From Tenericutes bacterium MZ-XQ (lineage in GTDB: Bacteria; Bacillota_I; Bacilli_A; Acholeplasmatales; Acholeplasmataceae): DNA of 64,000 bases. Shown piece by piece: positions 5,945 through 59,095 of this stretch. Below the pieces are notes generated by a model. That model saw only the letters and a program-made list of their open reading frames with translations, ran no database searches and was not told where the DNA came from. Location: positions 2,052,858 through 2,116,857 of the forward strand of contig CP017950.1 in assembly GCA_002838205.1 (NCBI GenBank), written 5' to 3'. Position numbers and translations under genes: made by a program. Each line of letters begins with the position of its first letter. Positions within the stretch are counted from its first letter, which is position 1.

Positions 5945-7444
5945 TTATTCTATGATTCTATACTTTTTCTTATGATATTTTGCTAAATTATACCCGATTG
6001 CGATGAGCGTAAGCTCAAACTTAACATTTTGAATGCCACGACGTTTAAATCTTCTAAATTTCATAGCCTCTTTGATGACGCCAAATGCCCCTTCAACTTG
6101 TATCGAACGTTGTGTTCTAAGTTCAATACCTAATGGTGATGTTAAGTTTTTGATCACTTCTTTTTGATAGGCTATATTTTCATCATTGACTTCTTTGGTT
6201 TTACCGTTTGGTAACTGATAGACATCATTGCCTCTGTGATTATGAAATAAGTAAGTTAATCTTTCGCCATTTTTTGCGATGTAATCTTTTTTGTCTTTGA
6301 TTAAATCATGAGAGAAATACGGGTCATTCATTCTTTTCTTATCTAATGTATCTTTGCTATACATACTGTATTTTTGATATAACTGCATATTGCATGCTGT
6401 AATATATCTATAGTTCATCAATCCCCCATATCCTGCATCAGCTACAGGATATAATGGATATCTGCCATATGCTTTCTTATAGCCTTCTAAAAAGGGGATT
6501 AATGTTTGATAATCATTTCGATCTTGATAAATATCTAAGTGTAGGATGTATTCATCAGATACGCCAATTTGTACATTATACCCCGGCTTTAACTGACTAT
6601 TTCTCATATGGTCTTCTTTCATGTGCATAAATGTCGCGTCATGATCAGTTCTTGCACAGGAGTTTCTATTGGGACCTATCGTTTTGATAAAATCATTATA
6701 TTCAAGTAGCTTTAAATGATAGTCTTTTATATGTTCATAATCCCTTTGTAGAACTGTTTTTCTTTGTCCTTTCCCATATACAAACTGTGTCCCTTGTTTT
6801 TCAAGTTCACGTGTTAGAAAGTCTAGAATCCTTTTTAGATATTCTACTTCATAGATGTCATATACTGGAAAAAAGATATCCATCTGTTGATAGGTATCAT
6901 TGAGTGCTTTGATCTGTTTGGTGATTTTTTTATATAATTTATCTCGGAATTTTTCTAATGACTTTTTCCAGATAAAGGTGTATTTGTTTGCGTTCGCTTC
7001 AATCTTTGTGCCATCGATATAGAGTTTCTCTATATCTATGCTTTCTTCTTGAATCAAAAATTGATTCAGATCATAATAAATAGCTTCTAGATTCTTAATT
7101 AAATAGCGATCCATAAAATCTTTAATCGCTTGATGCGTTGGTTGTAGTTCATCTGTTAACCACAGGATACGTATATCATTTCTTGCTGCTTTTTCCATCG
7201 CTCTTAAACTTGTGATGTTTTCCATCTGGCAAAACAGGATCAATTTGAGCATATTGACTGGATCATAACCGATTCTTCCTCTTGGATCTCTTTCGGTTTT
7301 TAAGTACTTTTTGACCTCCATTTTTGAAAATACTTCGTCAAATGTTCTTACTTCACTATCAAATGGTATTAAAATACCTGTAGATAGTGGTAATTTTAAC
7401 TGTTTTGCGTTAAAATAAACTTGGTGAAATTGAGTGTTTGTCAT
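5945..7444 (-). CDS. IS1182-family DDE transposase
   Basis: The 499-residue transposase matches the IS1182 pattern. An N-terminal DUF772-like helical domain (about 50-130: GRIGYDPVNMLKLILFCQMENITSLRAMEKAARND) is followed by the DDE catalytic core. The candidate acidic residues are Asp in YIDGTKIEANANKY, Asp in PVADAGYGG, and Glu in QVEGAFGVIKE near the C-terminus. The frame is uninterrupted and the ends are preserved, so the element may still be active. Confidence 0.95.
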   Translation of the reverse strand: MTNTQFHQVYFNAKQLKLPLSTGILIPFDSEVRTFDEVFSKMEVKKYLKTERDPRGRIGYDPVNMLKLILFCQMENITSLRAMEKAARNDIRILWLTDELQPTHQAIKDFMDRYLIKNLEAIYYDLNQFLIQEESIDIEKLYIDGTKIEANANKYTFIWKKSLEKFRDKLYKKITKQIKALNDTYQQMDIFFPVYDIYEVEYLKRILDFLTRELEKQGTQFVYGKGQRKTVLQRDYEHIKDYHLKLLEYNDFIKTIGPNRNSCARTDHDATFMHMKEDHMRNSQLKPGYNVQIGVSDEYILHLDIYQDRNDYQTLIPFLEGYKKAYGRYPLYPVADAGYGGLMNYRYITACNMQLYQKYSMYSKDTLDKKRMNDPYFSHDLIKDKKDYIAKNGERLTYLFHNHRGNDVYQLPNGKTKEVNDENIAYQKEVIKNLTSPLGIELRTQRSIQVEGAFGVIKEAMKFRRFKRRGIQNVKFELTLIAIGYNLAKYHKKKYRIIE

Positions 7445-13800: not shown

Positions 13801-16800
13801 GATTGACTAAAGTTTCCATATCATATGTTTGATATGTATAAGTAACAGGTTGGTCAGTCTGAATGATGTCTAATACAAAATTATCTGATCCATAATTACT
13901 TACAAATCTTAGTGTATTATTGTATGTGCCTAGATATACATTAAGTAAAACTTCATCACCTTTTCTAACACCTGGAAGTGTTTCAGCAATTAAGAACTCA
14001 TTACCTAATCCATCTGAGATATAACTATACATAGGATGCCAATAAGTAATCACACCTTGAATGACATATTGTCCATACATATACTCTCCTGGAATTTCCG
14101 CCAGTGGAGTGATTTCAAGCGCATGAAGTGTTGATGTAATAGTCAAGACTGCACTTGCATCACCTTTCGTAATGGTTGCAGTCATAGATATTGGCACATC
14201 AACTAAACTATAGGTAAAACTTTGACTTTCCATATCGTAATGATCAATCATGTCTTGTGATAATTCCCAAGTAATGCTTGCGCCTAGTTCAGGGTGATAT
14301 GGATAAAGTGGGAAATAATCAAATGCATAAAACTCGATGTTTTCAAACTGATACATTGCTGATTGCTTAATGGTATCAACAAGTTCTTGATCAGTATATT
14401 CAGGAATTCTAATATCTTCTCTAATACCTTCATAAAGTAATACCATAGATTCATGACTCATACCGATATAACCTTTGATATAAACTTCTAAGTAACCATA
14501 TTGCATGAGTTTTTCGAAACCTGAATATGTTGATGATTCAACTGTTAACTCATAGATGCCATCAACTAATCTAGAACCATGATAACCCATAAATGATTCT
14601 AATATATAACCTCTAACTTCTATATACTGTCCGTATACTGTAGGATCAGTCAAATCAAGACTGTTAATTTCTTCTAAAGTCATAGGTGTTGGGACAAGAT
14701 TAAGTTCATTTTCAGTTGAAATAATATCTAATATCTCAAATCCCATATTTTCTTTACTCAAGACGACTATGTTGCCTTCTAGTCTTCTTTTAACCGTAAC
14801 AATCAAGCGATCGCCAATTCGAAGATTATCATCATTATAAGCAAATACAGAACCTGTATCATCTTTTAATAGTGCATGTCCCATTTCTGTTGTTGAGACA
14901 ACAATAACATCAAGTGTATAAGTGGCACCCTCTATACCAGTTAAAAGTTCTACAACTGTTTGTGTATAAAGCGGAATTACTGTAACACTAATTGTTATTG
15001 TGTCTGTGACGAGTGGATCTGCTTGAGACGTAAATGTTACTTCAAAATCAATCACTGTTACATCATCTACATCTATAAACATTTGTGCTGTATGATCGTA
15101 ATAGACTGCGTTGTCACCAACTGCTTGATAAGTCACAAATGTAAATCCTAGTGGGTCAGCATCAGGAATAAAGAATGTTGTCTCTTCCATATACTCATCT
15201 TCAAATCCGAATGTTGTAAACAAGTATTGAATGAGCATAACTTTTTCTAACTCTGTGAATGGATTAGCTACAACACTGACTAAAGAAAGTTCGTAATAGC
15301 CTTTATCAAATACAAGAACAAAAGTCATTTGAACTCTTTCCATAACTAAGGCTTCGAGTTCAGCTGTTCTTGTTAGATTATAAGAAGGACCGTACAAAGA
15401 AATACCCTCTAGTGATACAGTATCAAGTAATGCATATTGACCATCTTCACTGAACAATATACCTTCAAATTGATATAAATTATGAATGTATGAAGTAGAA
15501 GGTATACTTAAATCTTCGATATCAGCAAATGGAAAATCAAGTGCAACTTTAGGTGTATTTCCTGAAGAATCAACAGTCACATGTGTAATGTTTGTAATAT
15601 ACGGAATATCTCCATCAAATGCTAACTCACCAGTTATAGTAACCATATCATTAAGATCAACACCTGTATGATCACCCATGACATATACATAACTTGTATC
15701 ATCATAAATATAGAATCCTAAAACTGTTTGATCATTTTCACCATAAACAATACCTGTAACAGTAACAATCGTTCCAGATGGTTGATTTAGCTTAACAATC
15801 AAAGAATTCGGATCTGTTGCATCAATCCAATATGCATATAGTGTAATATTCTCATCTGGCATTTCGTCAAATACGAACGGTTGTGTATATCCACTATCTA
15901 AATACCAACCTCCAAAAATATAGTCTTGTTTTGTCGGTTCAGTTGGTTCTGTAATTGGTGCCATGAACAGATGAGATTCACTGACGACTGCACTTCCACC
16001 CATGGAATCATAGGTAATCGTATATGTTTTAATTTGCCATTTCGCATAAACTACTGTCATACCTGCTGGCATGTTGGTATCATCAAAACTTAATGTAAGT
16101 TCAACATCTTTATACCAACCTAAAAAGTCATAACCTGATTTGGTTGGTGTTGGAAGAGTGATTGTAGAACCGGTAAGTTCAACTAAATCATCAAGCTCAT
16201 CTCCACCTTTAGTGTCGAACTTAATCGTAGATGCTGCAGCTTCCCATTTCGCATATAATGTTATATCAGCATTTGGATATGTTGTAAGATCATTCACTTG
16301 TGTAAGTGCTTCATCTTTATACCAACCAACGAATGTATATCCTAATTTTTGTGGGTCAATCGGTAGGATAATCGCAGATTCATATAATCCAGTAGTTGGT
16401 GTAACAAGTGAGCCCTCATTTGAATCATAAGAAATTGTAATTTCATTTCTTGTATAATACACAACAACTTTTGCTGTTCCATCTGCTTCAACAAAAGTAT
16501 CTAAATCATTTAGATCATTACTAGCATCATAAGTAAAACCTGAAACAACACCTGGTGTATGTGTATAAGTAGATGCTGTAAATGCTGTTGTGTTTTGTAT
16601 TTCTTTTAGCTCATATACACCGTCAGTTAAAGTTTCTACATATATTTCAATATCCACATTCACTAATGCTGGATCCCATTTTGCATAAATCGTAATACCA
16701 TTTAGTGGCATTGTAGTGATTGTGTACGCTGTTGTTAAAGTTTCATCACTATACCATCCAGCAAATGTATATCCTTCTTTTGTTGGTGCAGTCACATCTG

Positions 16801-17809
16801 GTATATCTAACTCATATCCTAGTTCAATGGGATCAATTGTTGTTCCACCATCTGTAACAAATGTCATGGTATATACAATTGGACTCCATTTTGCATATAA
16901 TGTAATACCGCCTGATGGCATTGTACCAAATACATAAGGATCTGAAGTTAAAGCTTCATCCGTATGCCAACTTTGGAAGTTATATCCTTCCTTTGTTGGA
17001 TTTTCTGGTGCAGTAACTGTTGATAAATATAACGCTTCAATTGTTGTTATTGTAGATCCACCATTAGAATTAAAAATGATTTGATAGGTTTTAGGTGTCC
17101 ACTTCGCATACAACGTTAAATCATTTTCAGGCATTACAGTCGCTGTAAATGCTGTTGTTAATCCTGAGTCAGTATACCAAGCATCAAAGTTATAATCAGC
17201 TTTAGTTGGTGTTGGAAGTGTCGGTATAGTTTCACCTGCTTCTAACTCAAGAGCAGCAACACTACTACCTCCATTGCTATTAAAAGTGATGGTATATGTC
17301 ACAATAACTTCTTCCCATTTAGCATATAATGTGACATTATTTTCAGGAATGGTCGTAAAAGTATAAGGTGTAGTCAATGCTTGATCACTATACCATCCTT
17401 CAAATGTGTATCCATCTCTGGTTGGTGCTGAAGGTTCTCCTAATGTATCACCTGGAACACCCACAATAGCAGTAACACTACTACCCCCATTGCTTTCAAA
17501 AGTAATGGTTACTGTTGCTTCCTCATCCTCTATCCATTTTGCATATAAGGTAGGGCTTTGATTTGTCAGTAACCCTGCAATTGCAAACGGATCTGTCAGT
17601 CCTTCATCAAAAAACCAGCCGTCAAACACATAACCATCCCTGGTTGGTTCTGGCAGGTTTATGTTAGATGTATCCGCATCAATAACTAAATCATCAATCT
17701 CACTACCACCATTGGAGTTAAACGTAATGGTGATCTCTTCGGTGCCTGTACAAGCAGCCAACGAAAAAAGCATAAACATCAAAAACATTATGCTTACAAG
17801 TTTTCGCAT
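10808..17809 (-). CDS. Giant lipoprotein with InlB-type repeats and OB-like domain array
   Basis: The start is ATG 17807-17809, with GGAGG 7 bases upstream; a TTG six bases earlier is too close to that site. The protein is 2333 residues. A signal peptide with lipobox LAAC predicts N-terminal lipidation near residue 20. Residues about 25-665 hold eight InlB B-repeat/Flg_new units of about 70 residues, each starting ITFNSNGG-like and ending TLYAKW. An unrelated 75-residue MucBP-like insert lies between units 5 and 6. The rest is a long array of repeated beta-rich domains resembling OB-fold lipoprotein modules (VTVTGIVYG..., VTITGEL) alternating with Ig-like segments (ISVTVIP, TMTVLN). No enzyme motif is seen. 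It is probably a long surface adhesin or ligand-binding stalk. Function unknown. Confidence 0.85.
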   Translation of the reverse strand: MRKLVSIMFLMFMLFSLAACTGTEEITITFNSNGGSEIDDLVIDADTSNINLPEPTRDGYVFDGWFFDEGLTDPFAIAGLLTNQSPTLYAKWIEDEEATVTITFESNGGSSVTAIVGVPGDTLGEPSAPTRDGYTFEGWYSDQALTTPYTFTTIPENNVTLYAKWEEVIVTYTITFNSNGGSSVAALELEAGETIPTLPTPTKADYNFDAWYTDSGLTTAFTATVMPENDLTLYAKWTPKTYQIIFNSNGGSTITTIEALYLSTVTAPENPTKEGYNFQSWHTDEALTSDPYVFGTMPSGGITLYAKWSPIVYTMTFVTDGGTTIDPIELGYELDIPDVTAPTKEGYTFAGWYSDETLTTAYTITTMPLNGITIYAKWDPALVNVDIEIYVETLTDGVYELKEIQNTTAFTASTYTHTPGVVSGFTYDASNDLNDLDTFVEADGTAKVVVYYTRNEITISYDSNEGSLVTPTTGLYESAIILPIDPQKLGYTFVGWYKDEALTQVNDLTTYPNADITLYAKWEAAASTIKFDTKGGDELDDLVELTGSTITLPTPTKSGYDFLGWYKDVELTLSFDDTNMPAGMTVVYAKWQIKTYTITYDSMGGSAVVSESHLFMAPITEPTEPTKQDYIFGGWYLDSGYTQPFVFDEMPDENITLYAYWIDATDPNSLIVKLNQPSGTIVTVTGIVYGENDQTVLGFYIYDDTSYVYVMGDHTGVDLNDMVTITGELAFDGDIPYITNITHVTVDSSGNTPKVALDFPFADIEDLSIPSTSYIHNLYQFEGILFSEDGQYALLDTVSLEGISLYGPSYNLTRTAELEALVMERVQMTFVLVFDKGYYELSLVSVVANPFTELEKVMLIQYLFTTFGFEDEYMEETTFFIPDADPLGFTFVTYQAVGDNAVYYDHTAQMFIDVDDVTVIDFEVTFTSQADPLVTDTITISVTVIPLYTQTVVELLTGIEGATYTLDVIVVSTTEMGHALLKDDTGSVFAYNDDNLRIGDRLIVTVKRRLEGNIVVLSKENMGFEILDIISTENELNLVPTPMTLEEINSLDLTDPTVYGQYIEVRGYILESFMGYHGSRLVDGIYELTVESSTYSGFEKLMQYGYLEVYIKGYIGMSHESMVLLYEGIREDIRIPEYTDQELVDTIKQSAMYQFENIEFYAFDYFPLYPYHPELGASITWELSQDMIDHYDMESQSFTYSLVDVPISMTATITKGDASAVLTITSTLHALEITPLAEIPGEYMYGQYVIQGVITYWHPMYSYISDGLGNEFLIAETLPGVRKGDEVLLNVYLGTYNNTLRFVSNYGSDNFVLDIIQTDQPVTYTYQTYDMETLVNLNSKDYSIYNQWIEVEGHLVTAYGNYSMILETVYGQVVIEFPDQLTEDELMLYEGQMVTLRAILHTHDYYYGFVLRYLGFEGDVLVSSYTDLEKLAIAKAYILDVYQQPVEEQSYFDFNEAYRLFKDGIFTMNPLDDINGTLDIIYDYIGSVESDETISVDVTIEFGVETETFNITMTVLNNESSSVVISTIADMVTDPLNAYTIRGMVVGVIESIDNQHILLIDDTTGIVYVTLDYDVYYQLYDYGMYGLIGDTLEISGKAVVIQNRYEIDFNAISVYARNETVSYVFTEETISDLLALDMTNTTIYGTPVNVSGVVEEIYIDSTRAFVINDGTHHVLISMTDAYWPVLSQYVGYQVAIDGFVFGVNSLYDETSLTIMLNDYKYDGSNSIQLDGYTDEEVVMMALDRVVMQFESYNPIRMPFEWVSLPGLNQIFSKGYPGMTMTYSVVSGGEFIEFYSNAFSTKLTGEDQIIELNLEVSYNGITKEMILKVHLNGFTAVTLADLFAVEEGTKEIVLEAEVLMSGFGYYYLLIEDKVYYLESYGYSYVNPGDQILLIGQKSLISGKADYTYNIYLLTTSYGSSSITYTPVTINDLYINDYDLNPIDEQPLAVSGKLGYDPYLEMFTLTDDSKMIYLRLAGWSGGEDLFDYMDAYVQIGGFISTKLVRDEYMVFDTFGTLDVLDLIPLAGQDSVDEVILLIDQYLGDLHLKSGMMIEDDLPLGDPFYYTTIAYELVDPLDAAYIDLNHMLLNIVDVETVVDILVTVTSQDGLATGQTTIQLTIHPRTDMSIKETLRVPEGTYVQTVGVINQIIYDGTDIYYFMIDDGTHATKVYINDWATFGYADLDLSIGDEVRVIGSTLFEDDMGVVSYIDLGAVVDELQSGQTVVKTPVVVDFLDIMNLEYLDEDNAYLYVEITGTLYSDGYTYYIQSDEYFVSGYYGNQYYSIEIVPSDYDAFNTELNAQVGSELTIEGYLWLDSLNYMFQWYITDGAHQIIIP

Positions 17810-17849
17810 ATCCAATCCTCCGCATCCTTTTTAGAGCATTTAGGACAAA

Positions 17850-46865: not shown

Positions 46866-49800
46866 TTATCTTATAGTTCCAGGTAAATATGAATAGAACA
46901 CTCTTGATGATTCTACACCGTCCACTGTAACTGTAATCGTATATGAAACAGTCATAGCTCTTTCTGGCATTTGAATAATTCTACCCGTATTGTCTAAGTA
47001 TTCGGGGTAATCACTAACCATGCTGATTTGTGCGCCTTGGAATGTTGAAGCAATTAAATACTCATGTGCAAGCAGTTCTTCAAATAATGGTGTTAGTCCA
47101 CCTCTAAGCATAGATTGTGGACACATTTTTCCACTAAAGTGATTATGGTATTTCATATGATCAACTGGTAAATTGTAATCAACTAAAAGTTGTGCTGATA
47201 ATTTAGCAGTTCTTTGCCATACTCTATAGTTATCTCCATCTTGAGCAACTGATGTTTCAATACCAATACTATTTCTATTTCCGCCACCGATGAGTTCGTT
47301 ATTTGTTCCCCAAACGACACCGGCTACTCTACTACCATCTCCAGCATGATAAGCTATTTCATCTAAAGGAACATGTTGATATACGTCTTTATCATCCATA
47401 GTATAATGCCATGAAACAAAGACATTACTGTTGATTGCGCCATTGTATAAATAATTAGCGTGTGCTAAAGCACCTTGTCCTGGACTTGTATTTGCGGTTT
47501 CGTGAATCGTTACATAATAAACATTTTCATCGTTATATCTAGGCATGTGATCTAGAGGATCAGATTTTTTGATGCCAGGTCTATTTACTCCGATTGGTAT
47601 CATCTTTGAGGTGTTAATATCTAGTTCATCAAAGTAAAATCTTGATACACTCTCGTACTTGAAATCCATATAGTTATGTGTCACTCCATAAACTAACCAT
47701 TTATGAGGTGTTGTATAGCTGATTTGTCCTGTGGTTAACACATCTAATAGATCAGATTCTAATAACTGATTATGGAATGTTAATGTGTATTCTGTTTGAA
47801 CATCAGGGTGATTAGCAAGTGTAACTACGAATGTTACTTGACCTGCACTATGTGAAGAAACTTCACCAAATTGATTGATCGTAGCAACATCAGGATTCAA
47901 TGATTCAAATAACACTGGTTCATCTGAAATTTGAACCGGAAATACGAGTGTATCTAGTGTTAATATATCACCAACAATGAGTTGTTGTGATGTCGTAGAT
48001 GGTGAAACCTCTACCCCAGGATCTGTTGTTACTTCAACACTAACAATTGTGTTGATAGAAAAATCACTACCTAATCTTAATGTAACATCTGAAAAACCAC
48101 TTTTTAAAGCGATAATGACACCATATGACTTAAAGAAAACTACTTCTGGATTTGATGTGATCAATCTAACTTTATCAGGATCTGATCCTATCGGTAACAC
48201 CTCAAAATGAAATGTGTGTACCTCTGAAACTTCAAGTAACAACTCATTTGCTTCTGCGATAATTTTGACAGGGATTTTAGGATCATAATCTTCTATACTG
48301 ACGATATCTGATGGATCACTATAAAACCCTCTCAAATCATGTTCAGTAATATTTTCAAAATCGCTATATAAAGGAGTTTCTACACCCCAATAATTTAATG
48401 TGAAATCAATATGATGATCCATATTAGCTTTTGCAGCTAATCCAGTGTAATTTGAAACTTCATTAAATCTCACATAATCAGCGATGTCAATTGATGATTT
48501 TGTTTGAAGTTCAATCGCGTTAATGACTTGATCAATCACATTTCTTTCAACTTGAACAACTGTTGAAGGATCATAATCTGACACTGCCATGATTGAGATT
48601 GCATGTTCTACATTTGTAATTTGATTGCCAAATACAATAATCTCACCATTTAGATAGTCTTCAATATAAATCGCATGACCATCTAAATTTGTAAATATAT
48701 TTTGTTCGATATGAATATCATGAACTGTAGATAGATTTAAAAATTTGTCTACGGTTACTCCATCCACGTGATTATCTATAAAAGTGAAATTTCCTATACC
48801 AGCTTGATTCATAATCGTTGCTGATCCTGTAAAACTAAAGTTGCTCATGTGAATATGATCAGCTGCAATTTCAATACTGCCTGATAATATAGCACCTTCA
48901 CTACCCATAAATGTTAAATTGTCTTGACTTACAACAAAATCTTCTTCATAAGACCCAGCAAATACGATTAAAGTTGCACCTTGTTCAGCTACTTCAAGGG
49001 CATCACTCATATTGGCGAATAAATCAACACCATACTCAAAATTTACACCTAAATGTAAAACAGTATCAGATGTGACTTTTGTTTCATCAACAAGCAAATA
49101 ATTAACGATTTCAACTTCAAAAGTATCGGTAATACTATTATCAAAATCAGAAATAGCAGTAATCGTTACCATACCAGTCTTTAATGCAGTTAAAACCCCA
49201 GTTTCACTGATGGTTGCGATCTCGCTATCACTAGATGACCATGTTACATACTCATAAGCATCATCAGGTCCGACTTCTGCATTTAATGTCTGTGTTGTGT
49301 TTATATTAACTTTATTATGTCCTTGAATAATGATGGTTTCAGCTTCATTAAATACTCTAACTGTAATTTCTTCTCTGACTTCGTCATCATAACTTGAAAT
49401 CACTTCAATTGTTGTTGTTCCATTTTTAAGTCCGGTGATTTCACCAGTTGCTGAAACTGTTAGAATTGTATCATCTTCAACTTCAAAATACACATCATCA
49501 TTAGAAGTAAACGGAATGTCTTCAGTCATACCAACCCACATTTCATAATAATCTTGTTCTACTTCTAAGGTGATGATTTTTCGAACGATAATTGTAATCT
49601 CTATAGATACCGTTGGATCTGTTACAGATGTAACTGTAAGTGTTCCTTCACCTTCTTCGATTCCAGTGACATTACAATCATTATCAACATCAAATGTAGG
49701 ATCATTTTTATCATCACAAACATATGTATCATTGCTTGTTATTTCGATAGCTATTGTTTCTCCTACTTTTAGTGTATAAGATGTTTGAGCTGACTCTAAA

Positions 49801-50114
49801 ACAACATCCTTTTCAACAATCACAGCAAGCGTTACTTGAACCTCTGGGTTTATAGTAGACGTAATACTTACTGTAACCTCTCCTGGGCTTAATGCTTCTA
49901 TAAGTCCTGAATCACTAACAGTTAAAACATCTTCATTACTGGATAAGTATGTTAATGTTTCATCATTACTTAATGCATCAATTTGATAGGTGTCTCCCTC
50001 TTTCAGTGTAATCTCTTGATCCGGGATAGATATTGTAATATCCTCTTCCACACACGCAAATAGACTAACTGATAAAATAAGTGCCATCCATATGTACGCA
50101 ATTTTCTTATGCAT
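46866..50114 (-). CDS. Lipoprotein N-acetylmuramoyl-L-alanine amidase with Ig-like and beta-helix domains
   Basis: The start is ATG 50112-50114 with GGAGG 9 bases upstream, giving 1082 residues; a longer frame has no ribosome site. A signal peptide ends in lipobox LFAC. Four BIG2-type Ig-like domains (about 20-340) are followed by a right-handed beta-helix (about 345-590), two more Ig-like domains, and an Amidase_2 domain (about 850-1020). Zinc-ligand and catalytic candidates are His in VTIHETAN, Glu in SIGIETS, and His and Cys in HNHFSGKMCPQS. It should remove stem peptides from peptidoglycan at the outer surface. Its start overlaps the amiE-like gene by 8 bases. Confidence 0.92.
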   Translation of the reverse strand: MHKKIAYIWMALILSVSLFACVEEDITISIPDQEITLKEGDTYQIDALSNDETLTYLSSNEDVLTVSDSGLIEALSPGEVTVSITSTINPEVQVTLAVIVEKDVVLESAQTSYTLKVGETIAIEITSNDTYVCDDKNDPTFDVDNDCNVTGIEEGEGTLTVTSVTDPTVSIEITIIVRKIITLEVEQDYYEMWVGMTEDIPFTSNDDVYFEVEDDTILTVSATGEITGLKNGTTTIEVISSYDDEVREEITVRVFNEAETIIIQGHNKVNINTTQTLNAEVGPDDAYEYVTWSSSDSEIATISETGVLTALKTGMVTITAISDFDNSITDTFEVEIVNYLLVDETKVTSDTVLHLGVNFEYGVDLFANMSDALEVAEQGATLIVFAGSYEEDFVVSQDNLTFMGSEGAILSGSIEIAADHIHMSNFSFTGSATIMNQAGIGNFTFIDNHVDGVTVDKFLNLSTVHDIHIEQNIFTNLDGHAIYIEDYLNGEIIVFGNQITNVEHAISIMAVSDYDPSTVVQVERNVIDQVINAIELQTKSSIDIADYVRFNEVSNYTGLAAKANMDHHIDFTLNYWGVETPLYSDFENITEHDLRGFYSDPSDIVSIEDYDPKIPVKIIAEANELLLEVSEVHTFHFEVLPIGSDPDKVRLITSNPEVVFFKSYGVIIALKSGFSDVTLRLGSDFSINTIVSVEVTTDPGVEVSPSTTSQQLIVGDILTLDTLVFPVQISDEPVLFESLNPDVATINQFGEVSSHSAGQVTFVVTLANHPDVQTEYTLTFHNQLLESDLLDVLTTGQISYTTPHKWLVYGVTHNYMDFKYESVSRFYFDELDINTSKMIPIGVNRPGIKKSDPLDHMPRYNDENVYYVTIHETANTSPGQGALAHANYLYNGAINSNVFVSWHYTMDDKDVYQHVPLDEIAYHAGDGSRVAGVVWGTNNELIGGGNRNSIGIETSVAQDGDNYRVWQRTAKLSAQLLVDYNLPVDHMKYHNHFSGKMCPQSMLRGGLTPLFEELLAHEYLIASTFQGAQISMVSDYPEYLDNTGRIIQMPERAMTVSYTITVTVDGVESSRVFYSYLPGTIR

Positions 50115-51165
50115 GTTTATTTTCCTCCCTATACTCATATATTTTTTGAGCAATATGTTTTCTATAACCAATAATTTCATTAAGTTCTCGCTTCGGATGC
50201 ACTGCATTTGATAACATGACAAAACCTATCTCATGTTTTCTATCGATGAACATATTACATCCGGTAAAACCTGTATGTAAAATCGTTTGATCAAAATCAG
50301 ACATATCTGATGATGATCCACCTTTAGTTGGTTTATCCCATCCTAAAGCCCTTTTTAAGATGTTCCCATTCAAAGATGGCAACTCTTTTTGAACTTTGAA
50401 TAATAAATCAACATTCTCTTTTTTTAACACAAATCTATTTTCTAATATACTTTTTATGAAAATATTTAAGTCATTAACTGTTGAAAATAATCCAGCGTGT
50501 CCTGCACCACCAATCGCAAAAGCTTTTTCATCGTGGACAAGACCCTTTAAAAATCCTTTATAGACTTCATCATCTCTAAATTCTGTTGGTGCACATCTAT
50601 AACCATTTGGTTGATATGATGTATCTTTCATACCTAAAGGTTTAAAAATGATTTCTTGACTGTATTCATGTAAAGTTTTTCCAGTGATTTTTTCAATCAT
50701 AAACCCAAGCAAAATAAATCCGATATCCGAGTATATAATATATTCACCTTTATTCACCTTCAGTTTAACACTTTTAATTTTATTTTCAACATCTTCTCTA
50801 TCTCTTAAAGTGTTTGCTCTTGGAATATCCGCTGGAAGTCCTGATGAATGTGTAAGTAAGTCATAAACATTAGTTTCTGAAATTGGATAGTAATCGATGA
50901 TTTCATTGACTTTTGTATCTAAGGTCAATTTGCTTTCTTCAATAAGTTTCATGATTAATGTCGTTGTTGAAACAACCTTAGTTAGTGATGCAACATCATA
51001 GATTTCATCACCCTTTAGTTTTACCTCTGAAGGGTAGAGTTGTTTATATCCAACATAATCGCTTTTGGGTATTTGATTTTTTTCGACATATCCAAAATGC
51101 ACTCCAGGAAAGTGTTTTTTTAAAACACCTTCCTTTAGTATATTATTAATATTATTTATGATCAT
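50107..51165 (-). CDS. Beta-lactamase-fold serine hydrolase, AmiE-like
   Basis: The start is ATG 51163-51165, with AAGG 7 bases upstream; a TTG two codons earlier overlaps that site (352 residues). The active-site Ser-x-x-Lys is SLTK in YDVASLTKVVSTTTL. The second motif is Tyr-Ser-Asp in YIIYSDIGFILLG, and the third is HTG in LHTGFTG. In B. subtilis a homologue, YbbE/AmiE, in the murQ-murR-murP-amiE-nagZ-namZ operon is assigned as an N-acetylmuramyl-L-alanine amidase. This neighbourhood supports the same role. A generic class C beta-lactamase-like esterase is the alternative. There is no signal peptide. Confidence 0.85.
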   Translation of the reverse strand: MIINNINNILKEGVLKKHFPGVHFGYVEKNQIPKSDYVGYKQLYPSEVKLKGDEIYDVASLTKVVSTTTLIMKLIEESKLTLDTKVNEIIDYYPISETNVYDLLTHSSGLPADIPRANTLRDREDVENKIKSVKLKVNKGEYIIYSDIGFILLGFMIEKITGKTLHEYSQEIIFKPLGMKDTSYQPNGYRCAPTEFRDDEVYKGFLKGLVHDEKAFAIGGAGHAGLFSTVNDLNIFIKSILENRFVLKKENVDLLFKVQKELPSLNGNILKRALGWDKPTKGGSSSDMSDFDQTILHTGFTGCNMFIDRKHEIGFVMLSNAVHPKRELNEIIGYRKHIAQKIYEYREENKHA

Positions 51166-51186
51166 TTCCAAACCTTCTTTTTTAAA

Positions 51187-54100
51187 TTACTTGATATGAT
51201 TTGCTTGTTTTTTTCTTATGAAGAACAATGCTGATCCACCTAAAATAAAGCTGAATGTCATAAATATTGCACTAGAACCTGTAATCGCTGATCCACACCC
51301 TTTTTTTGGTGTAGGCTCTTCTATAGCAACACATGTTCCATCGATATATTCAAAACCATCTTCACACGTTGTACTCACAACTTCAAAAGAAATTGTGCTA
51401 ACAAAACTTTCTACATCATAAGCTCCAATCGCTTTAAAACTGATTTCGTATGTGCCGGCCTCATCAACAACTATACGTTCATCATATAATGTCCATTGTC
51501 CGTTGTTGATCTTATAATATATCGCATCATTTGATGATAAGGTTAAAGTTACACTATCTTCATATTTACTACCGCTAATCAACGTACCAGTAATACTATA
51601 TGTTGGCGAAGTCACTGCATTTACAATTTCAAGATTAATGGTTTCTATCAAACTTTCAAAACCATCTTCATCTACTGCTTTATATAAAATTGTATAATTT
51701 CCTATTTCATCGATGGTAATAGCTTCGGTATATAACGTCCAACTAGCGTTGTCAATCTTATAATAAACATCATACTCTGATGTAAAGTTTATTGTTGCAT
51801 CAGTTTCATAAACATGATCGACAACCATATCACCTACAACATCTATTGTTGGAACTTCAATAACCTTAACAACGTCGCTTTCCCAAGGGAATGTTGCATA
51901 CTTTGTCCAATAATGTTCTTGAATTCTTTCTAATGCTTGAACGACATTGTTATTAAAACTATTTAATGTTTTATAAGAGAAGAATGAACTACCAACAACA
52001 CTGTCGTACTTAGATATGTATCTTAATTGTTCAGTAATCTCATTCGGATTATCCCAACTTCCATCAGCATATCGGTAAAATCCATGACCAATAATGAGAT
52101 CAACTCCATGTGCTTCAGTTAACTGTGCCCACCAATCTACAAGATCAGCAAACGGCGCAGCTCCATGATCAAACTCCCAATAAAGTTGTGGCATGATGTA
52201 ATCTAACCAACCTTCCATCACCCATTTTCTTGTGTCTGCATATTGATCACTATAACTTTGAAGTGCATATGGACTTGTATTTGATCCAAATGCTCCACCT
52301 GATAGCCAAATACCAAATGGACTGATACCAAATTCAACTGTTCTATCTCTATTTCTGTTCCAGTTGTTGATAGTAATATGAAGATTTTCGATTAACATAT
52401 CAACATTTCTTCTGCGCCAATCATCAAGAGATTCACCAGTTAATTTTGTGTCGTTATACGTTTCTGCATCTTGTGAATCAGACATACCGCTATAACTATA
52501 GAAATAATCATCAAAATGAATGCCGTCAACATCATATTTAGACATTAACTCGTTCACTACATTAATGATGTAAGATCTTACACGTGGTTCTCCAGGATTT
52601 AGTATGAGTTTCCCTTGACTATCTTGAATGACTAAATCAGGATTTTGTTTTGCAAAATTCTCGTCATGAAGTGCATCTAGCTGAGTTTGTTTATCTGCCG
52701 TTCCAGTAGATACACGATATGGATTCAACCATGCATGTACTTCTATACCTCTATGATGAGCTTCATCCAAAATGAATTGGAATATATCCCAGCCCGGGTC
52801 TATACCTTCAGCTCCCATAATATATCTACTCCATGGTGCATAATCGCTATCATAAAATGCATCATTCATTGGTCGAACTTGGAAAAACATCACATTAAAG
52901 TTAAGCTCTTCTAATCGATCTAACATCGTTATGATTTCATTTTTATAACTATCTTCGCCATAATGCATGCCAATATCAATATTACTTACAGTTGCTACCC
53001 AAACAGCTCTAACTTCTGCATCTTTTTCTGTATATGTTGTTGGTAGTTCAACTGGTGTATTGGTTTGATAGTAATTTACATACTCACCATCACGAATCAC
53101 AAATCTATTGGTTTCACTTGGTGGTATATTTAATCTTATGCGTTCAGAGATTGTCTCTGATACATTCAATGCTTCATCTTGAGCATAATATTCTAATGTA
53201 TATGTTGCGTTTAAAGCTAAAATAAGTGTTTCACTATATAAATTCCAACTTGACCAAGTTTTACCATTGTGTAGTCGATAAAAAATCTCATCAGTGCCAT
53301 TTGTACTTGACAAATCGACTAATGTTTCTTCAATGTAATATATATCCTCTTTTTCACCAGTAATTGTTAGAAGTGGATCTTCTGGAGGTGTTTGGTCAAT
53401 GATGATTTCTTTAGTGACTTCATTCATAGTCGCATCATCATTTCTAAATACAATCGTATAAGTACCTTCAACATCTAATGTAAATGGTGCTGTATACGTA
53501 TGCCAACCGCCACTATTGATTTGATATGATATAGAATCAGCATCACTTGTAAATGAAATTTCAGCATGTTGATAATATGGATCTCTACCAACACCATCAA
53601 TTGAAATCACAGGATCAGGATAAGATTCTAGAGTTACCGCTATGCTTTGTGTATATATCTCAGACTCAATGCCTTCTGAATCAATCGTTTTGACCCTAAA
53701 GAAATATGTACCTGCTTGATCCAAAGTGATCGGACCTTCATATAGATTCCATTCGCCCACACTTCCTTTGTTGATTGCAACCCATATAGGATTTACATCA
53801 GATGCAAGCGTGACTGTAGATCCTACGACATATGCATCTCCAATCATTTCACCGTTAATAGTCAATGTAGGTACGTCTAAATTTTGTTTTTCTATTTCAA
53901 AGCTACGTGCTTGAACTAAACTTTCTTGAGCTAAACTATCGATAGCTTTATAGTAAACTGTATGTTCTCCTTGTTCATTAATTATAAATGGCGCAGTGTA
54001 TAACTGCCAAATGCCATCACCAGTGTGATAGTAAATATCGTGTGTTGATGAGAGTGTGACTTCAACTTCTGTTCTATATACTCCACCATCTAAAGTTCCA

Positions 54101-55410
54101 TCTAGACTTATTGTTGGTGCATCTACAGTACTCGTTTGCCATGTGTTTAAAGGTTTTGTCGTCCATAAATTAGTGGTCACTAAGTTCATATGTGTAGTAT
54201 TCAAAAAATTTGCACTATATAACATAGAGCCTTTAATCTCCGGATGTTTCTGATTATATTTGATTTGTTCATAGAACTCAACTGTAGGATACTCTGTTCG
54301 ATATATTCCGTGACCAATGATCAAGTCTACACCAGTGCCACGTACTGTTTCAGCCCACCAATCTACCACATCAGCATAAGGTGCCAATGAATGTTCTAAA
54401 TTCCAATATATCTGTGGATTGATGTAATGAACCCATCCTTCATCAACCCATTTCTTTGAATCTGCATACTGACTATAATAACTTTGGATTGAACCTGAAG
54501 CAACGTTTGCCCCATCAGGTTCTCCAACTTTCCATAATCCGATCGGTGAAACACCAAATCTAACATCTTTATTGCTATCTGTATTATGTGTATCAATGAC
54601 TGATTTTACTCCAGAGATAGCATTGTTTACACTTCTTCGTCTAAAATCTGAGAGTGTTTCATTGGTGAGCTTATAAGTGTTATAAGCATCTTGATCTTCT
54701 CCTGAAGGTAATCCACCATATGGATAAAAATAATCATCAAAATGAATACCATCAACATCATATAAATCCATGATTTCTGAGACGACATTCTTAATATAAT
54801 CCACAACAGCTGGTTCACCTGGATTTAAGATATATTTTCCATCATTGTCTTGAATGACTAAATTTGGATTCATTCTCGCGAAATTGTTTGGTGCTAAGTC
54901 GTTTAATGCTTCAGCACTTGATGTTGTTACACGATAAGGATTCATCCATGCATGAAACTCAATGCCTCTTGCATGAGCTGCAGAAACCATATAAGCCATT
55001 GCATCCCATCCTGGATCTTGTCCTTCAGAACCTGCTAAATATCTACTAAAAGGTGCGTAAGCACTTTGATAAAATGCATCATTTCTAGGTCTTACTTGAA
55101 ACAAGATAGCGTTTAGATTATTATCTTCAACATCATCTAGTAATGCATCAAATGCTGCTTTATATTGAGTTTCACTTGTGTGTAATGGGAAATTAAGATT
55201 GTATACTGTAGCAACCCACACACCTCTAAACTCACTTGTTCTTTCTACATATGTTTGTGGAGTCATCACTGGATTAGATGTACCATAATGATAAACATTG
55301 TCTCCATTTATTTGTAAAACTTCAAGTGGTCCATCGGCTTGTGTTGAAATAGACATACCCAAAGATCCTAGAAGTATGATTGCAAATATAAATAATATGA
55401 TTTTCTTCAT
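51187..55410 (-). CDS. Giant secreted protein with two GHL10 glycosidase domains and CGSAI-type tail
   Basis: The 1407-residue protein has a Sec signal (about 1-25). GHL10 (DUF187) domain 1 is about 50-425 (EFRGVWVATVYNLNFP, ILFQVRPRNDAFY, EFHAWMNPYRV, DGIHFDDYFYPYGG). Four Ig-like units of about 95 residues follow (440-800), each with YYHTGDGIWQLYTAPF-like strands. GHL10 domain 2 is about 815-1185, with the same motifs. Two more Ig units and the tail GCGSAITGSSAIF-helix-IRKK close the protein. E. coli DigH, a GHL10 protein, cleaves peptide-free peptidoglycan strands, so this is likely a surface endoglycosidase on amidase-treated glycan. Confidence 0.9.
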   Translation of the reverse strand: MKKIILFIFAIILLGSLGMSISTQADGPLEVLQINGDNVYHYGTSNPVMTPQTYVERTSEFRGVWVATVYNLNFPLHTSETQYKAAFDALLDDVEDNNLNAILFQVRPRNDAFYQSAYAPFSRYLAGSEGQDPGWDAMAYMVSAAHARGIEFHAWMNPYRVTTSSAEALNDLAPNNFARMNPNLVIQDNDGKYILNPGEPAVVDYIKNVVSEIMDLYDVDGIHFDDYFYPYGGLPSGEDQDAYNTYKLTNETLSDFRRRSVNNAISGVKSVIDTHNTDSNKDVRFGVSPIGLWKVGEPDGANVASGSIQSYYSQYADSKKWVDEGWVHYINPQIYWNLEHSLAPYADVVDWWAETVRGTGVDLIIGHGIYRTEYPTVEFYEQIKYNQKHPEIKGSMLYSANFLNTTHMNLVTTNLWTTKPLNTWQTSTVDAPTISLDGTLDGGVYRTEVEVTLSSTHDIYYHTGDGIWQLYTAPFIINEQGEHTVYYKAIDSLAQESLVQARSFEIEKQNLDVPTLTINGEMIGDAYVVGSTVTLASDVNPIWVAINKGSVGEWNLYEGPITLDQAGTYFFRVKTIDSEGIESEIYTQSIAVTLESYPDPVISIDGVGRDPYYQHAEISFTSDADSISYQINSGGWHTYTAPFTLDVEGTYTIVFRNDDATMNEVTKEIIIDQTPPEDPLLTITGEKEDIYYIEETLVDLSSTNGTDEIFYRLHNGKTWSSWNLYSETLILALNATYTLEYYAQDEALNVSETISERIRLNIPPSETNRFVIRDGEYVNYYQTNTPVELPTTYTEKDAEVRAVWVATVSNIDIGMHYGEDSYKNEIITMLDRLEELNFNVMFFQVRPMNDAFYDSDYAPWSRYIMGAEGIDPGWDIFQFILDEAHHRGIEVHAWLNPYRVSTGTADKQTQLDALHDENFAKQNPDLVIQDSQGKLILNPGEPRVRSYIINVVNELMSKYDVDGIHFDDYFYSYSGMSDSQDAETYNDTKLTGESLDDWRRRNVDMLIENLHITINNWNRNRDRTVEFGISPFGIWLSGGAFGSNTSPYALQSYSDQYADTRKWVMEGWLDYIMPQLYWEFDHGAAPFADLVDWWAQLTEAHGVDLIIGHGFYRYADGSWDNPNEITEQLRYISKYDSVVGSSFFSYKTLNSFNNNVVQALERIQEHYWTKYATFPWESDVVKVIEVPTIDVVGDMVVDHVYETDATINFTSEYDVYYKIDNASWTLYTEAITIDEIGNYTILYKAVDEDGFESLIETINLEIVNAVTSPTYSITGTLISGSKYEDSVTLTLSSNDAIYYKINNGQWTLYDERIVVDEAGTYEISFKAIGAYDVESFVSTISFEVVSTTCEDGFEYIDGTCVAIEEPTPKKGCGSAITGSSAIFMTFSFILGGSALFFIRKKQANHIK

Positions 55411-56627
55411 GTTGACCTTCCTCCCTGAAATAATTTCTTTAATCTTTTCATGCCTTCTTCTGTTTTACCTTCATCTATGAAAGTGTGATAAGTGAAAAAG
55501 ACATGACCTTTAACTTCTTTATATTGTGAAACATATTTAACTTGATTAATGATCTCATTAGGGTTTTCAAACTCACCCTCATTACCTAAACGATAAGCAC
55601 CATGTCCGACATATAAATCTACATCAGTATCCTTAACAGCATCTACCCAAAAGTCTACGATATCCGCAAATGGCGCAATTTCATGACCTAACTCCCAATA
55701 AATCTGCGGAACAATATAATCTATATATCCTTTTTTGACCCAGTCATAACTATCTGCATATTCGTTGCTATAACTTTGACTGCATTTTGGATCAGTATTT
55801 GACCCATGGTGTTCTTCGGTTTTATTTCTCCAAATGCCAAATGGAGAAACACCAAATCTTAGTTTAGGGTTTTCTTTTTTTATATGGTCATATACACGCT
55901 TGATGACTTCAGTTACTTGTTCTCTTCTAAAGTCGTCTAAAGTTTGTGTTTGGATTTCTCTTTGTTCATATTCTTTTAAATCGTTATCTTCATCGATTAA
56001 TCCACCGTAAGGATAAAAATAATCATCAAAATGAATGCCATCAACATCATAATTTTGAATAAGTTCTAAAATAGTTTCGATAATAAAATCTTTAACTTCA
56101 GTTCTTGCAGGATTCAATATTAATTGTCCTCGGTGATCGGTGACCAGCATTTCAGGATGCTTTTTCGCAAAGTTTAAATCATCACAAGTATCTAAATACT
56201 CTGTTTTTGATAAACCTGTTTTCATAGAAACTCTATATGGATTCATCCACGCATGAAACTCAATATGATGCTTTCTAGCTTCTTCAATAATCCATTTTAA
56301 AACATCAAAAGGAGGTCTTTCTCCTTCTTTTCCAGTTAAAAATCGACTGTATGGATTAAGTTGGGATTCATAAAATGCATCATTAGTTGTTCTAACTTGA
56401 AAAATAATTGCGTTCATTTGATAAGCGTTGCACGTTTCAAATATTTCATAAACTTTCTTTTTGTACAGTTCAATATCTTGAGTCGTTGGCATATCTATGT
56501 TTAGAACATTTGATACCCATAGTGCTTTAAAAGATTTATCTTTATATGTATCTGGAATGATGATATGATCTTTTGTGTTGTAATGATAAATTGGTTCTTC
56601 TGGATGTTTATACTTAAATAATTTCAT
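55407..56627 (-). CDS. Cytoplasmic GHL10-family glycosidase
   Basis: The 406-residue protein is a single GHL10 domain without signal peptide or anchor. It shares FKALWVSNVLNIDMP, NAIIFQVRTTNDAFY, EFHAWMNPYRVS, and DGIHFDDYFYPYGGL with both domains of the neighbouring secreted protein, so the three domains are paralogues. It probably cuts imported peptidoglycan oligosaccharides inside the cell. It ends over the start of the secreted GHL10 gene by 4 bases and follows the GH4-like gene by 3. Confidence 0.9.
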   Translation of the reverse strand: MKLFKYKHPEEPIYHYNTKDHIIIPDTYKDKSFKALWVSNVLNIDMPTTQDIELYKKKVYEIFETCNAYQMNAIIFQVRTTNDAFYESQLNPYSRFLTGKEGERPPFDVLKWIIEEARKHHIEFHAWMNPYRVSMKTGLSKTEYLDTCDDLNFAKKHPEMLVTDHRGQLILNPARTEVKDFIIETILELIQNYDVDGIHFDDYFYPYGGLIDEDNDLKEYEQREIQTQTLDDFRREQVTEVIKRVYDHIKKENPKLRFGVSPFGIWRNKTEEHHGSNTDPKCSQSYSNEYADSYDWVKKGYIDYIVPQIYWELGHEIAPFADIVDFWVDAVKDTDVDLYVGHGAYRLGNEGEFENPNEIINQVKYVSQYKEVKGHVFFTYHTFIDEGKTEEGMKRLKKLFQGGRST

Positions 56628-56630
56628 TTT

Positions 56631-57926
56631 TTACTCCTTATGATAGTATGTGAGTCGTTTTTCATTTAATAATCGATACGATTGAAATATAATATCAACT
56701 TCTCTAATATTGAACATTAAAGGGTGTGATTTAATCGCAAGAGAAACTTTATCCAAGTCTTTCAAATAGATAGCATCAGATAAGAGTTGCTCAAATGCTT
56801 TTTGATGTTGCAATAATCCTTTTATTTGAAGCGGTAATCTAGAAACATGAACAGGTATTGGACCATCTTTTGTGATTCTAGCGGTAACTTCAACAGCACA
56901 ACCTTCTTCTAAATCTTCAACATGCCCATTATTGATTGTGTTTATGATTTGATAATCCCTTTTATCTTTAATCAGTGCATTTAATAGTTTTGCAGCTTTA
57001 CTGCTGTATATTTCAAAATCAGATGATTGATAAGTTTTTAACACTTCTTCAATTGATGATTTTTGGAACATTTTGTAAAGATTCGTTTCAAATGCTTTTT
57101 TCATTGTCATAGGTGATTTGTTTTGACGACACTTCTTTAAAAATGTTTGTTTTTCATCGTCATGATAATAAAGCATCTTTAAATCAACACTCGGAAAGAC
57201 ACCTAAATCATTCAAAAATGTATTTGACCAAAAACAGAACTCTTCTGCTCGGTTTATAATGTCTAACAATTCATGTAGTCTATCTTTTTGTTTTTGAAAT
57301 ACACTGGTAATATATGTTAATGGATTAACTCCAGCAGCATATGTAATGAGTTGATTGGTTTTCACATGTAATGCTTTTGCAAAACATTCATTCATATCTT
57401 CAGGAACATTTGAGATACCTATGTATTTTTCAATTTCTGCATATCTAAATACGGATTCACTTATAATTCCCATCGGTTGCGATAAATTAATAAACCATGC
57501 ATTTTCACAAGCAGTATTCATCATCTCAATTGCTTGATATATTTTAGGTATTGTTTTAATCGCTTTAAAGATACTTTTCATACCGTATAGATCAGATGAG
57601 AAAAGATCATTTTCACATAGCAATTTTTCATCACTTAAATCCGATGAATCTACATATAATCCAATACATGACAAGACATAATCGGCATCTTTTAAAGATT
57701 CTAGCATCTCTGTAGATGCAAACAACTTGATATCACTTTGATAGTATTTAAGTATTTTGTTGGAAAAATCATGAACACTTAATAAATAATCATGCTGGTC
57801 TTCATCATCAACAAGCCATATTTCTGATATAGTTTCATGGATTTTGTACTCAACAATCTTAGCAATAAGTTGAGGTATGTACGGCGATGCACCACCTAAA
57901 ATAACTATTTTTTTATCTTGGTTCAT
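56631..57926 (-). CDS. Divergent GH4-family protein lacking the usual metal ligands
   Basis: The 431-residue protein has the GH4 layout: NAD-binding VILGGASPYIPQLI at the N-terminus, DADYVLSCIGLY, MKSIFKAIKTIP, NAWFINLSQPMGIISESVFRY, and a C-terminal EGCAVEVTARITKDGPIPVHVSRLP. Typical GH4 enzymes bind Mn2+ through a Cys in the GxCN(V/M)P motif and a His in GLNHL. Here those read GISNVP and GVNPL, so both ligands are replaced. GH4 members usually split phospho-glycosides by an NAD-dependent redox mechanism. A changed mechanism, a new substrate, or loss of catalysis are all possible. Confidence 0.85.
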   Translation of the reverse strand: MNQDKKIVILGGASPYIPQLIAKIVEYKIHETISEIWLVDDEDQHDYLLSVHDFSNKILKYYQSDIKLFASTEMLESLKDADYVLSCIGLYVDSSDLSDEKLLCENDLFSSDLYGMKSIFKAIKTIPKIYQAIEMMNTACENAWFINLSQPMGIISESVFRYAEIEKYIGISNVPEDMNECFAKALHVKTNQLITYAAGVNPLTYITSVFQKQKDRLHELLDIINRAEEFCFWSNTFLNDLGVFPSVDLKMLYYHDDEKQTFLKKCRQNKSPMTMKKAFETNLYKMFQKSSIEEVLKTYQSSDFEIYSSKAAKLLNALIKDKRDYQIINTINNGHVEDLEEGCAVEVTARITKDGPIPVHVSRLPLQIKGLLQHQKAFEQLLSDAIYLKDLDKVSLAIKSHPLMFNIREVDIIFQSYRLLNEKRLTYYHKE

Positions 57927-57958
57927 CTTGGTTTACCTAGCTTTCGTTAATTTATGAA

Positions 57959-59095
57959 TTAGACGTATTGAATTTGTCCTAATATTTTATATGTTTTTGC
58001 ACCAGTTGCTGATTTCACATTTGATGGAAGTTTGTGTAATGTTTGGTTCGCCAAAATAACAAATGCTAATGCTTCTTTATAGGAACTGCTATATCCTAAA
58101 TCTTCAAGCATGATGACTTTTGTGTCTGGCATTTTTTTTGCTATTTCGTTTCTTATAAAGTGATTGTATGCTCCACCACCACATAAAACAAGTTCATCCA
58201 CTGGAGCTTGAATGAGTTTATGATAACTATCAACGATAGAATCAACAGTAATCATAGATAACGTTTGAATAATATCTTCTTTAGGGTATGCTTTATACTT
58301 CTTAATCATTTTTAATGTATATTCTGATCCAAATATTTCTCTGCCTGTAGATTTTGGATAAATTTGATTAAAATATGGATGACGATAGATTTCATCATAC
58401 ATTTTTTCAATCAGCTTTCCTTTGGAAGCGATGATTCCATCTTTATCATATTCCAAATTATATAATACTTGACAAGCTTCATTGATCATCATATTTCCGG
58501 GGCCGCTGTCAAATGCAATCACATCATCAAGTGTACCGTTTTTCTTTAAATAGGTCATATTAGCTATACCACCAATATTATGAATCGATCTATTAATTAT
58601 TTTGTCAGTAAATAGAATATAGTCTGCATATGGTACAAGTGGAGCACCTTGACCACCACTAGCGATATCAGCATTTCTAAAATTATAAACAACAGTTGTA
58701 CTCGTCATATCAGCTATAATCGCCGCTTCTCCAAGTTGTAGACTAGATCTATATGCTCCTTTTTCATCTTTCGCAATATGATAAATGGTTTGACCATGTG
58801 ATGCGATAAAATCAATGTTATTCAAATCTATTTGATAGTCTTTTGCAAAATCTAAAACAGCTTGACCAAATACATAACCAAGCTCAACATTCAAACTAGA
58901 TATGAGTTTTGAGGAGGATAATTTTTCATCCATTGCTTGATGGATTTGAGAGATAACATCTTCACTTAATGGATAAGTATTCTCATAAATAACTTTCACT
59001 TTTGTATCTAAAGATACACCTGATATTTCTGTTAATACAACATCAATACCATCAAGTGATGTTCCACTCATCAATCCAATTGCCAATTTTTTCAT
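57959..59095 (-). CDS. anmK: Anhydro-N-acetylmuramic acid kinase
   Basis: The 378-residue protein is a full-length AnmK: LAIGLMSGTSLDGIDVVL at the start, SHGQTIYH, QLGEAAIIAD, GGIANMTYL, FDSGPGNMMI and ELVLCGGGAYNHFI. It phosphorylates and opens 1,6-anhydroMurNAc to MurNAc-6-phosphate, the MurQ substrate. The substrate arises from lytic transglycosylases, none of which is in the window. The gene heads a transcript behind the candidate promoter at 59116-59156. Confidence 0.96.
   Translation of the reverse strand: MKKLAIGLMSGTSLDGIDVVLTEISGVSLDTKVKVIYENTYPLSEDVISQIHQAMDEKLSSSKLISSLNVELGYVFGQAVLDFAKDYQIDLNNIDFIASHGQTIYHIAKDEKGAYRSSLQLGEAAIIADMTSTTVVYNFRNADIASGGQGAPLVPYADYILFTDKIINRSIHNIGGIANMTYLKKNGTLDDVIAFDSGPGNMMINEACQVLYNLEYDKDGIIASKGKLIEKMYDEIYRHPYFNQIYPKSTGREIFGSEYTLKMIKKYKAYPKEDIIQTLSMITVDSIVDSYHKLIQAPVDELVLCGGGAYNHFIRNEIAKKMPDTKVIMLEDLGYSSSYKEALAFVILANQTLHKLPSNVKSATGAKTYKILGQIQYV

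Follow-up and report, generated by a model that had tools for sequence, protein, structure and literature searches.

The protein of 431 residues encoded on the minus strand at positions 56631-57926 of the window, the stretch of 64,000 nucleotides analysed here from the Acholeplasmataceae member Tenericutes bacterium MZ-XQ, is a GH4 family member by sequence and predicted fold, but it fails at the residues that define a GH4 enzyme, for which reason it is properly named a GH4-like pseudoenzyme. By its sequence it is a pseudoenzyme in the usual sense, that is, the homolog of an enzyme with the catalytic residues lost. In relatives, the same operon slot holds a kinase, here called KinX, next to a GH4 protein with an intact active site. 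The explanation that we consider probable is that kinase and 6-phospho-glycosidase formed a pair, and that loss of the kinase left a GH4 pseudoenzyme whose C-terminal part has a non-catalytic role for which the protein is retained.

A GH4 fold with a lost active site

The open reading frame coincides exactly with the above positions, and its product exceeds both Pfam GH4 cut-offs, with 82.8 bits for PF02056 (23.2 required) and 110.7 bits for PF11975 (24.1 required); no other protein of its 2.16-Mb genome matches PF02056. Nearly its whole length aligns with the GH4 structures 5c3m and 1s6y (phmmer, E about 1e-47). An AlphaFold2 model, calculated from an alignment with 19 relatives, has a mean pLDDT of 89.0 and a pTM of 0.91; its best match in the PDB is 1s6y (Z 48.7, rmsd 2.5 Å, 414 residues), with further matches to 5c3m_C (Z 48.7) and BglT (1up7_H, Z 44.5), and in this model the GH4 fold is predicted to extend across the full length of the protein. 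The features of the protein, with the evidence on which each assignment is based, are:

56631 to 57926, minus strand: GH4-fold pseudoenzyme, 431 aa (ORF, Pfam PF02056 and PF11975, AlphaFold2 model, PDB match 1s6y)
57879 to 57896, minus strand: Rossmann/NAD glycine motif GGASPY, residues 11-16, kept (alignments)
57639 to 57641, minus strand: Asp96, in place of a -1 subsite Arg (R96D; alignment)
57588 to 57593, minus strand: Asp112-Leu113, in place of Glu-Thr of the GQETxG motif (E112D, T113L; alignments)
57477 to 57479, minus strand: Gln150, in place of a -1 subsite Asn (N150Q; alignment)
57411 to 57413, minus strand: Ser172, in place of the metal-ligand Cys (alignments)
57321 to 57323, minus strand: Pro202, in place of the metal-ligand His (alignments)
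57183 to 57185, minus strand: Asp248, at the position of the -1 subsite (presumed catalytic) Tyr (alignment)
57111 to 57113, minus strand: Pro272, in place of a -1 subsite Arg (alignment)
56712 to 56981, minus strand: C-terminal module, residues 316-405, conserved in all degenerate lineages (windowed identity, invariant columns)

An earlier note on this DNA had proposed that the metal-binding Cys and His read Ser and Pro and that the N-terminal NAD motif is kept. Alignment with the characterised enzymes 5c3m, 1s6y and 1up7 (phmmer), as well as a MAFFT alignment, bears this out: GISNVP lies opposite GLCNVP, which places Ser172 at the Cys ligand, GVNPLTY lies opposite GLNHLSF, which places Pro202 at the His ligand, and the glycine motif, judged from the sequence, is retained. 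The site labels ‘Cys171/His200’ follow a GlvA-like numbering rather than that of BglT, and we take the catalytic base of GH4 enzymes to be the tyrosine represented by BglT Tyr241.

The loss extends beyond the metal ligands to six other -1 subsite residues that the earlier note had overlooked. The -1 subsite of ChbF is formed by C172, N150, H203, Y258, T113, E112, R96, R282 and N173, as listed in PMC13197890 (2026), and these nine positions, mapped by alignment, make up the active-site table used throughout this work. In the same order the window protein reads S, Q, P, D, L, D, D, P and N, and so keeps one of the nine residues; the reference GH4 enzymes BglT and 5c3m have all nine. Furthermore, the orthologs in three congeners (45-55% identity) all carry the Ser/Pro pair, every one of the four genus members with the gene has Asp248, and the genus carries 23 fixed substitutions that none of 17 canonical relatives shows. 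Ten of these, present in all four members, fall at positions that are invariant in those relatives. The shared Ser/Pro pair and these 10 substitutions argue against chance or an assembly error.

Kinase presence and the state of the active site

The prevailing gene order in relatives, which are mostly Acholeplasmataceae and Izemoplasma-type MAGs, is MurR-AnmK-KinX-GH4-GHL10. In the window, the genes for AnmK and the GH4-like protein are separated by a short spacer, and no KinX ortholog is found in the genome:

59230 to 60084, minus strand: MurR/RpiR-type regulator (profile)
57959 to 59095, minus strand: AnmK, anhydro-MurNAc kinase, upstream neighbour (profile)
57927 to 57958, no strand: 32-bp AnmK-GH4 spacer, the KinX slot in relatives (gene order; KinX identity)
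55407 to 56627, minus strand: single-domain GHL10 (PF02638), downstream neighbour (Pfam profile)

The MurNAc-salvage setting that had been proposed for the protein is upheld by AnmK and the regulator, by NagB- and MurQ-like genes recognised on reading the ORFs, and by NagZ- and NamZ-like genes read across relatives. Beside the pseudoenzyme, positions 46866-56627 code for three GHL10 domains and for large proteins of surface type, in which Ig-like and amidase-like parts were recognised by eye. GHL10 is, we assume, the family of E. coli DigH. The latter is a denuded-glycan hydrolase according to PMC12288456. In bacteria related to wall-less ones, the presence of such surface proteins and GHL10 domains beside the pseudoenzyme suggests that foreign peptidoglycan serves as food. 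Elsewhere in the window, ORFs resembling TnpB-type and IS-type transposases were seen by eye at 4434-5702 and 5945-7444, and positions 10808-17815 encode a protein of 2335 residues with many GYTFxGWYxD repeat units, InlB-type-like by eye.

KinX (~326 aa) belongs to the BadF family in all seven proteins scanned, and its best PDB match is the MurNAc/GlcNAc kinase 8zo3 (E 9.4e-31). Its orthologs in the order share at least 47% identity, except for the distant G039 (29%), and occur only in genomes where an intact GH4 gene adjoins. A search of the kinase-less genomes for a KinX gene elsewhere returned only paralogs of at most 31% identity (26% in G227), and relocation within the genome was rejected on this ground.

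The survey covered 160 genomes of the order, by searching with the GH4 protein and, as an anchor, with the neighbouring GHL10, followed by reading of the regions, and showed the AnmK-GHL10 slot in three states: kinase with GH4, GH4 alone, or neither. The last state is found in 11 genomes (G007, G020, G034, G040, G043, G052, G054, G056, G060, G061 and G158), nine of them without any remnant and two with weak, short matches outside the slot. At the thresholds applied, the fifth member of the window genus, G001, lacks both GH4 and GHL10 although it is listed as 100% complete, and the operon seems to have been lost there.

Where KinX adjoins a full-length GH4, 22 of 22 genomes keep all nine active-site residues, and the truncated GH4 of G079, also with KinX, keeps the seven that it covers. 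The operon GH4 lacking KinX has lost between two and nine residues in 13 of 13 genomes: seven of nine remain in G028, six in G015, five in G006, G065 and G227, four in G063 and G064, one in G000, G002, G004, G050 and G058, and none in G003. In these counts L041 and G406, which are the same contig, are entered once, the truncated Tissierella copy L051, which lies outside the operon and has both Cys and His, is dropped, and G039 and G216, where KinX lies beside GH4 but outside the AnmK slot, are placed with the KinX genomes. Loss of the metal ligands is not universal, since Cys and His both survive in the kinase-less G028 and G006, where other residues or the GQETNG segment have been lost. L047/G006 has the appearance of an intermediate: it keeps Cys, His and Tyr but has lost both the RGG.YS motif and the GQETNG segment, and its Rossmann motif reads GKTSEY.

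The contrast is also seen between two congeners, of which G406 has KinX and an intact GH4, whereas G227 lacks KinX and reads Ser/Gln. As a base rate, over 46 GH4 loci (32 of roughly 100 listed places together with 14 of the 30 loci that the same search returned) the Cys is kept in 45, the His in 45 and the Tyr in 46; the exception is G227, whose GH4 gene lies in the operon, adjoining AnmK, with no KinX.

The linked losses represent about five separate events, so that the agreement is complete and the independent sample small. A tree of 40 rows was built from five neighbouring proteins; it is without G227, L049 and G068 were left out by choice, and rows of 600 residues or fewer (L036, G082) were omitted. 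On this tree the three slot states require 8 changes and KinX 5 overall; among holders of GH4, KinX and the active-site state require 4 each, with just one independent KinX/active-site contrast on fully supported branches. A quick tree, which came with a warning of joined long branches, placed G008/L049 otherwise and, like the first, needed 8 changes to account for the slot states. A sign test cannot reach 0.05 on four or five events.

Outside the order, another BadF-like kinase comes directly after GH4 in 18 of 20 fetched loci (confirmed by Pfam in the three scanned), which makes GH4 beside a BadF kinase a recurrent pair; in L128-L145, from other families of the class, the order GH4 then BadF-like kinase is the reverse of that in the Acholeplasmataceae slot. 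Genes for RpiR-type regulators, a NagA-sized amidohydrolase and NagB are found close to other GH4 genes, in L156, L157 and L158, and in L156 PTS EIIC and IIB genes were confirmed, an amino-sugar link for that GH4 branch. Within the order, NagZ-, NamZ- and MurK-like genes (the last another BadF kinase) are found in 37, 36 and 37 of 38 genomes, whatever the state of the slot. Replacement of the KinX/GH4 step by one of them was rejected, as they are present regardless of state, and their near-universal presence makes the KinX/GH4 pair look like a side branch and not the principal route.

Selection, the C-terminal module and rival explanations

Despite the degraded active site, kinase-less GH4 is under purifying selection in the close pair G063/G064 (Ser/Glu, dS 0.44), where dN/dS is 0.078 (0.050-0.120) for GH4, compared with 0.065 for AnmK, 0.058 for GHL10 and 0.090 for a serine hydrolase. 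In the window genus the constraint is less securely measured because dS is saturated (G000-G002: dN 0.38, dS 1.80). Reading frames are uninterrupted in all 13 kinase-less copies, with shortened forms in G050 (405 aa), G058 (350 aa) and G006 (388 aa). Divergence of GH4 relative to AnmK/GHL10 averages 0.55 in KinX genomes (0.30-0.80, 91 pairs) and reaches 2.17 (6 pairs), 1.51 (10 pairs) and 1.90 (1 pair) in three kinase-less groups, with no overlap between these and the KinX genomes.

The conservation that remains is concentrated in the C-terminal module. In windows within residues 316-405, identity between degenerate and canonical proteins is 0.48-0.84, against 0.71-0.77 among the canonical proteins themselves, while over residues 1-120 the canonical proteins show 0.71-0.86 and the window genus just 0.21-0.47. 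The columns invariant in 17 canonical rows (G400, G423, G073, G079, G039 and L049 are not among them) are likewise kept more often in residues 325-405 than elsewhere: 17/25 versus 37/134 in the window genus, 22/25 versus 57/134 in genus g12, 18/25 versus 23/134 in G050 and G058 together, 24/25 versus 69/134 in G006 and, least clearly, 23/25 versus 98/134 in G227 (p 0.04), where the p-values are descriptive because the 325-405 boundary was picked after the identity profile had been viewed. There is no conservation in the final ~26 residues, those closest to the start of GHL10 (0.25, canonical versus window genus). Third-position divergence in residues 305-405 is about that found elsewhere (0.47 versus 0.53 for G000-G002; 0.50 versus 0.41 for G003-G004), on which ground a nucleotide-level element was rejected and the constraint placed at the protein level. 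The distant, intact G039 has an identity of just 0.20-0.37 in the module, so the constraint belongs to this operon lineage rather than to GH4 in general. The Rossmann motif is kept in the window genus, g12 and G227 and altered in G050, G058 and G006.

From its occurrence in G039, L046, L049, G216 and others, we infer that KinX together with an intact GH4 6-phospho-glycosidase was the ancestral content of the slot. KinX would phosphorylate O6 of an imported peptidoglycan-derived sugar or disaccharide, and the intact GH4 would then cleave the resulting phospho-glycoside. KinX is missing in several lineages, and its loss would have preceded GH4 decay; with no substrate, selection on the active site would lapse, and the metal ligands, the Tyr and the sugar- and phosphate-binding residues could then undergo the changes that are observed. 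The protein is nevertheless kept under purifying selection, as the close pair of relatives shows, above all over residues ~316-405, which may carry a non-catalytic function already present in the active enzyme; candidate roles are to hold a salvage-pathway partner or to act as a sensor of NAD(H) or of a sugar phosphate. Where this role also became dispensable the gene would have been deleted, as may have happened in the 11 genomes with neither gene. A stronger form, to which we give slightly less than an even chance, holds that the intact slot GH4 was already bifunctional and that each kinase loss leaves a pure scaffold or sensor, so that pseudoenzymes arise from it repeatedly and predictably.

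The accelerated divergence, the shortened forms and the 11 double losses, nine without remnant, would also be expected of a plain relic, a gene that drifts after kinase loss towards deletion with no residual function. This we regard as unlikely in view of the 13 unbroken frames, the upper bound of 0.120 on dN/dS in an unsaturated pair, the non-random C-terminal retention in five lineages and the confident predicted fold of the window protein, the last helped by its alignment. The earlier phrase ‘regulator-like relic’ comes close to the reading favoured here, a pseudoenzyme with a putative non-catalytic role.

The other suggestion of the earlier note, a new redox enzyme for phospho-amino-sugar glycosides, is not supported. 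A neofunctionalised protein with a new active site, perhaps a metal-free NAD-dependent oxidoreductase, would account for the retained Rossmann motif in the window genus, g12 and G227 and for the 23 genus-fixed substitutions, 10 of them at canonical-invariant positions; moreover, GH109 likewise uses an oxidation-linked elimination (PMC10628242). GH109 enzymes are not known to need a metal. However, eight of the nine -1 subsite residues are gone, the Tyr position included, each of the kinase-less lineages has its own set of replacements at the catalytic residues, unlike what a new active site common to them would show, the Rossmann motif is altered in G050, G058 and G006, and the constraint lies in the C-terminal part and not around the old active site. 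We consider a new enzyme quite improbable for the family as a whole, although a version restricted to the window genus could still hold. A working hydrolase might have rebuilt its metal site with different residues, and the genus does have a fixed Cys231 and a fixed Asp248 where canonical relatives have neither, but a search of the alignment for substitute Cys or His residues placed none in the metal site and offered only the genus-specific Cys231/Cys181 and Asp248. Such rebuilding was rejected, and with the -1 subsite lost far beyond the metal ligands and no slot kinase to supply a 6-phospho substrate, a working hydrolase of this kind is very improbable indeed.

Comparison with known systems

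In GH4 catalysis the -1 sugar is oxidised at its C3 hydroxyl, and the C3 oxygen of MurNAc carries a lactyl ether. Because this oxygen is substituted, even an intact GH4 would be unable to use MurNAc-6P at -1, and a more likely glycone for the intact pair is one like GlcNAc, GlcN or Glc. The mechanism, oxidation by NAD followed by elimination, is set out in PMC10628242, and the GH4 enzyme ChbF is reported, in PMC13197890, not to accept GlcNAc6P-GlcNAc and to need GlcN6P rather than GlcNAc6P.

Literature searches over titles and the starts of abstracts, with few subscription journals covered, returned nothing relevant on GH4 pseudoenzymes and no description of a kinase-linked GH4 pseudoenzyme slot, and the peptidoglycan passages of papers on uncultured relatives contained nothing about this operon. 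Pseudoenzymes are a known kind; their repeated origin from one slot, tied to the loss of a partner kinase, is to our knowledge new. The slot amounts to a natural replicate experiment in pseudoenzyme formation, with one missing partner and about five parallel losses, and intact sister proteins are available for comparison. It also indicates an undescribed kinase and GH4 route in the peptidoglycan-sugar salvage of relatives of wall-less bacteria, and the annotation ‘6-phospho-beta-glucosidase’ would mislabel a recognisable subset of GH4-fold proteins.

With the GH4 6-phospho-beta-glucosidases (1s6y; Gan4C, 5c3m; BglT, 1up4/6/7; ChbF) the window protein has the full-length fold, both Pfam domains and the Rossmann motif in common, but in it the metal Cys and His, the Tyr and five further -1 residues are replaced. 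The canonical GH4 proteins of the same slot in Acholeplasmataceae and Izemoplasma (e.g. L050) share 30-40% identity with it, and its C-terminal module is nearly as conserved as among themselves; they differ in having the adjoining BadF kinase and an intact site, both absent in the window. KinX belongs to the same family as the BadF MurNAc/GlcNAc kinases (8zo3, Ca_MurK and Tf_MurK, the last of which has MurNAc-6-kinase activity according to PMC5790795), although the substrate of KinX could be a disaccharide. A further parallel is the S. aureus MurP/MupG route, which hydrolyses MurNAc6P-GlcNAc (PMC6262408) and likewise phosphorylates and then cleaves a peptidoglycan disaccharide; MupG, however, is a DUF871 protein with no NAD requirement, whereas here the pair is a BadF kinase and a GH4 protein.
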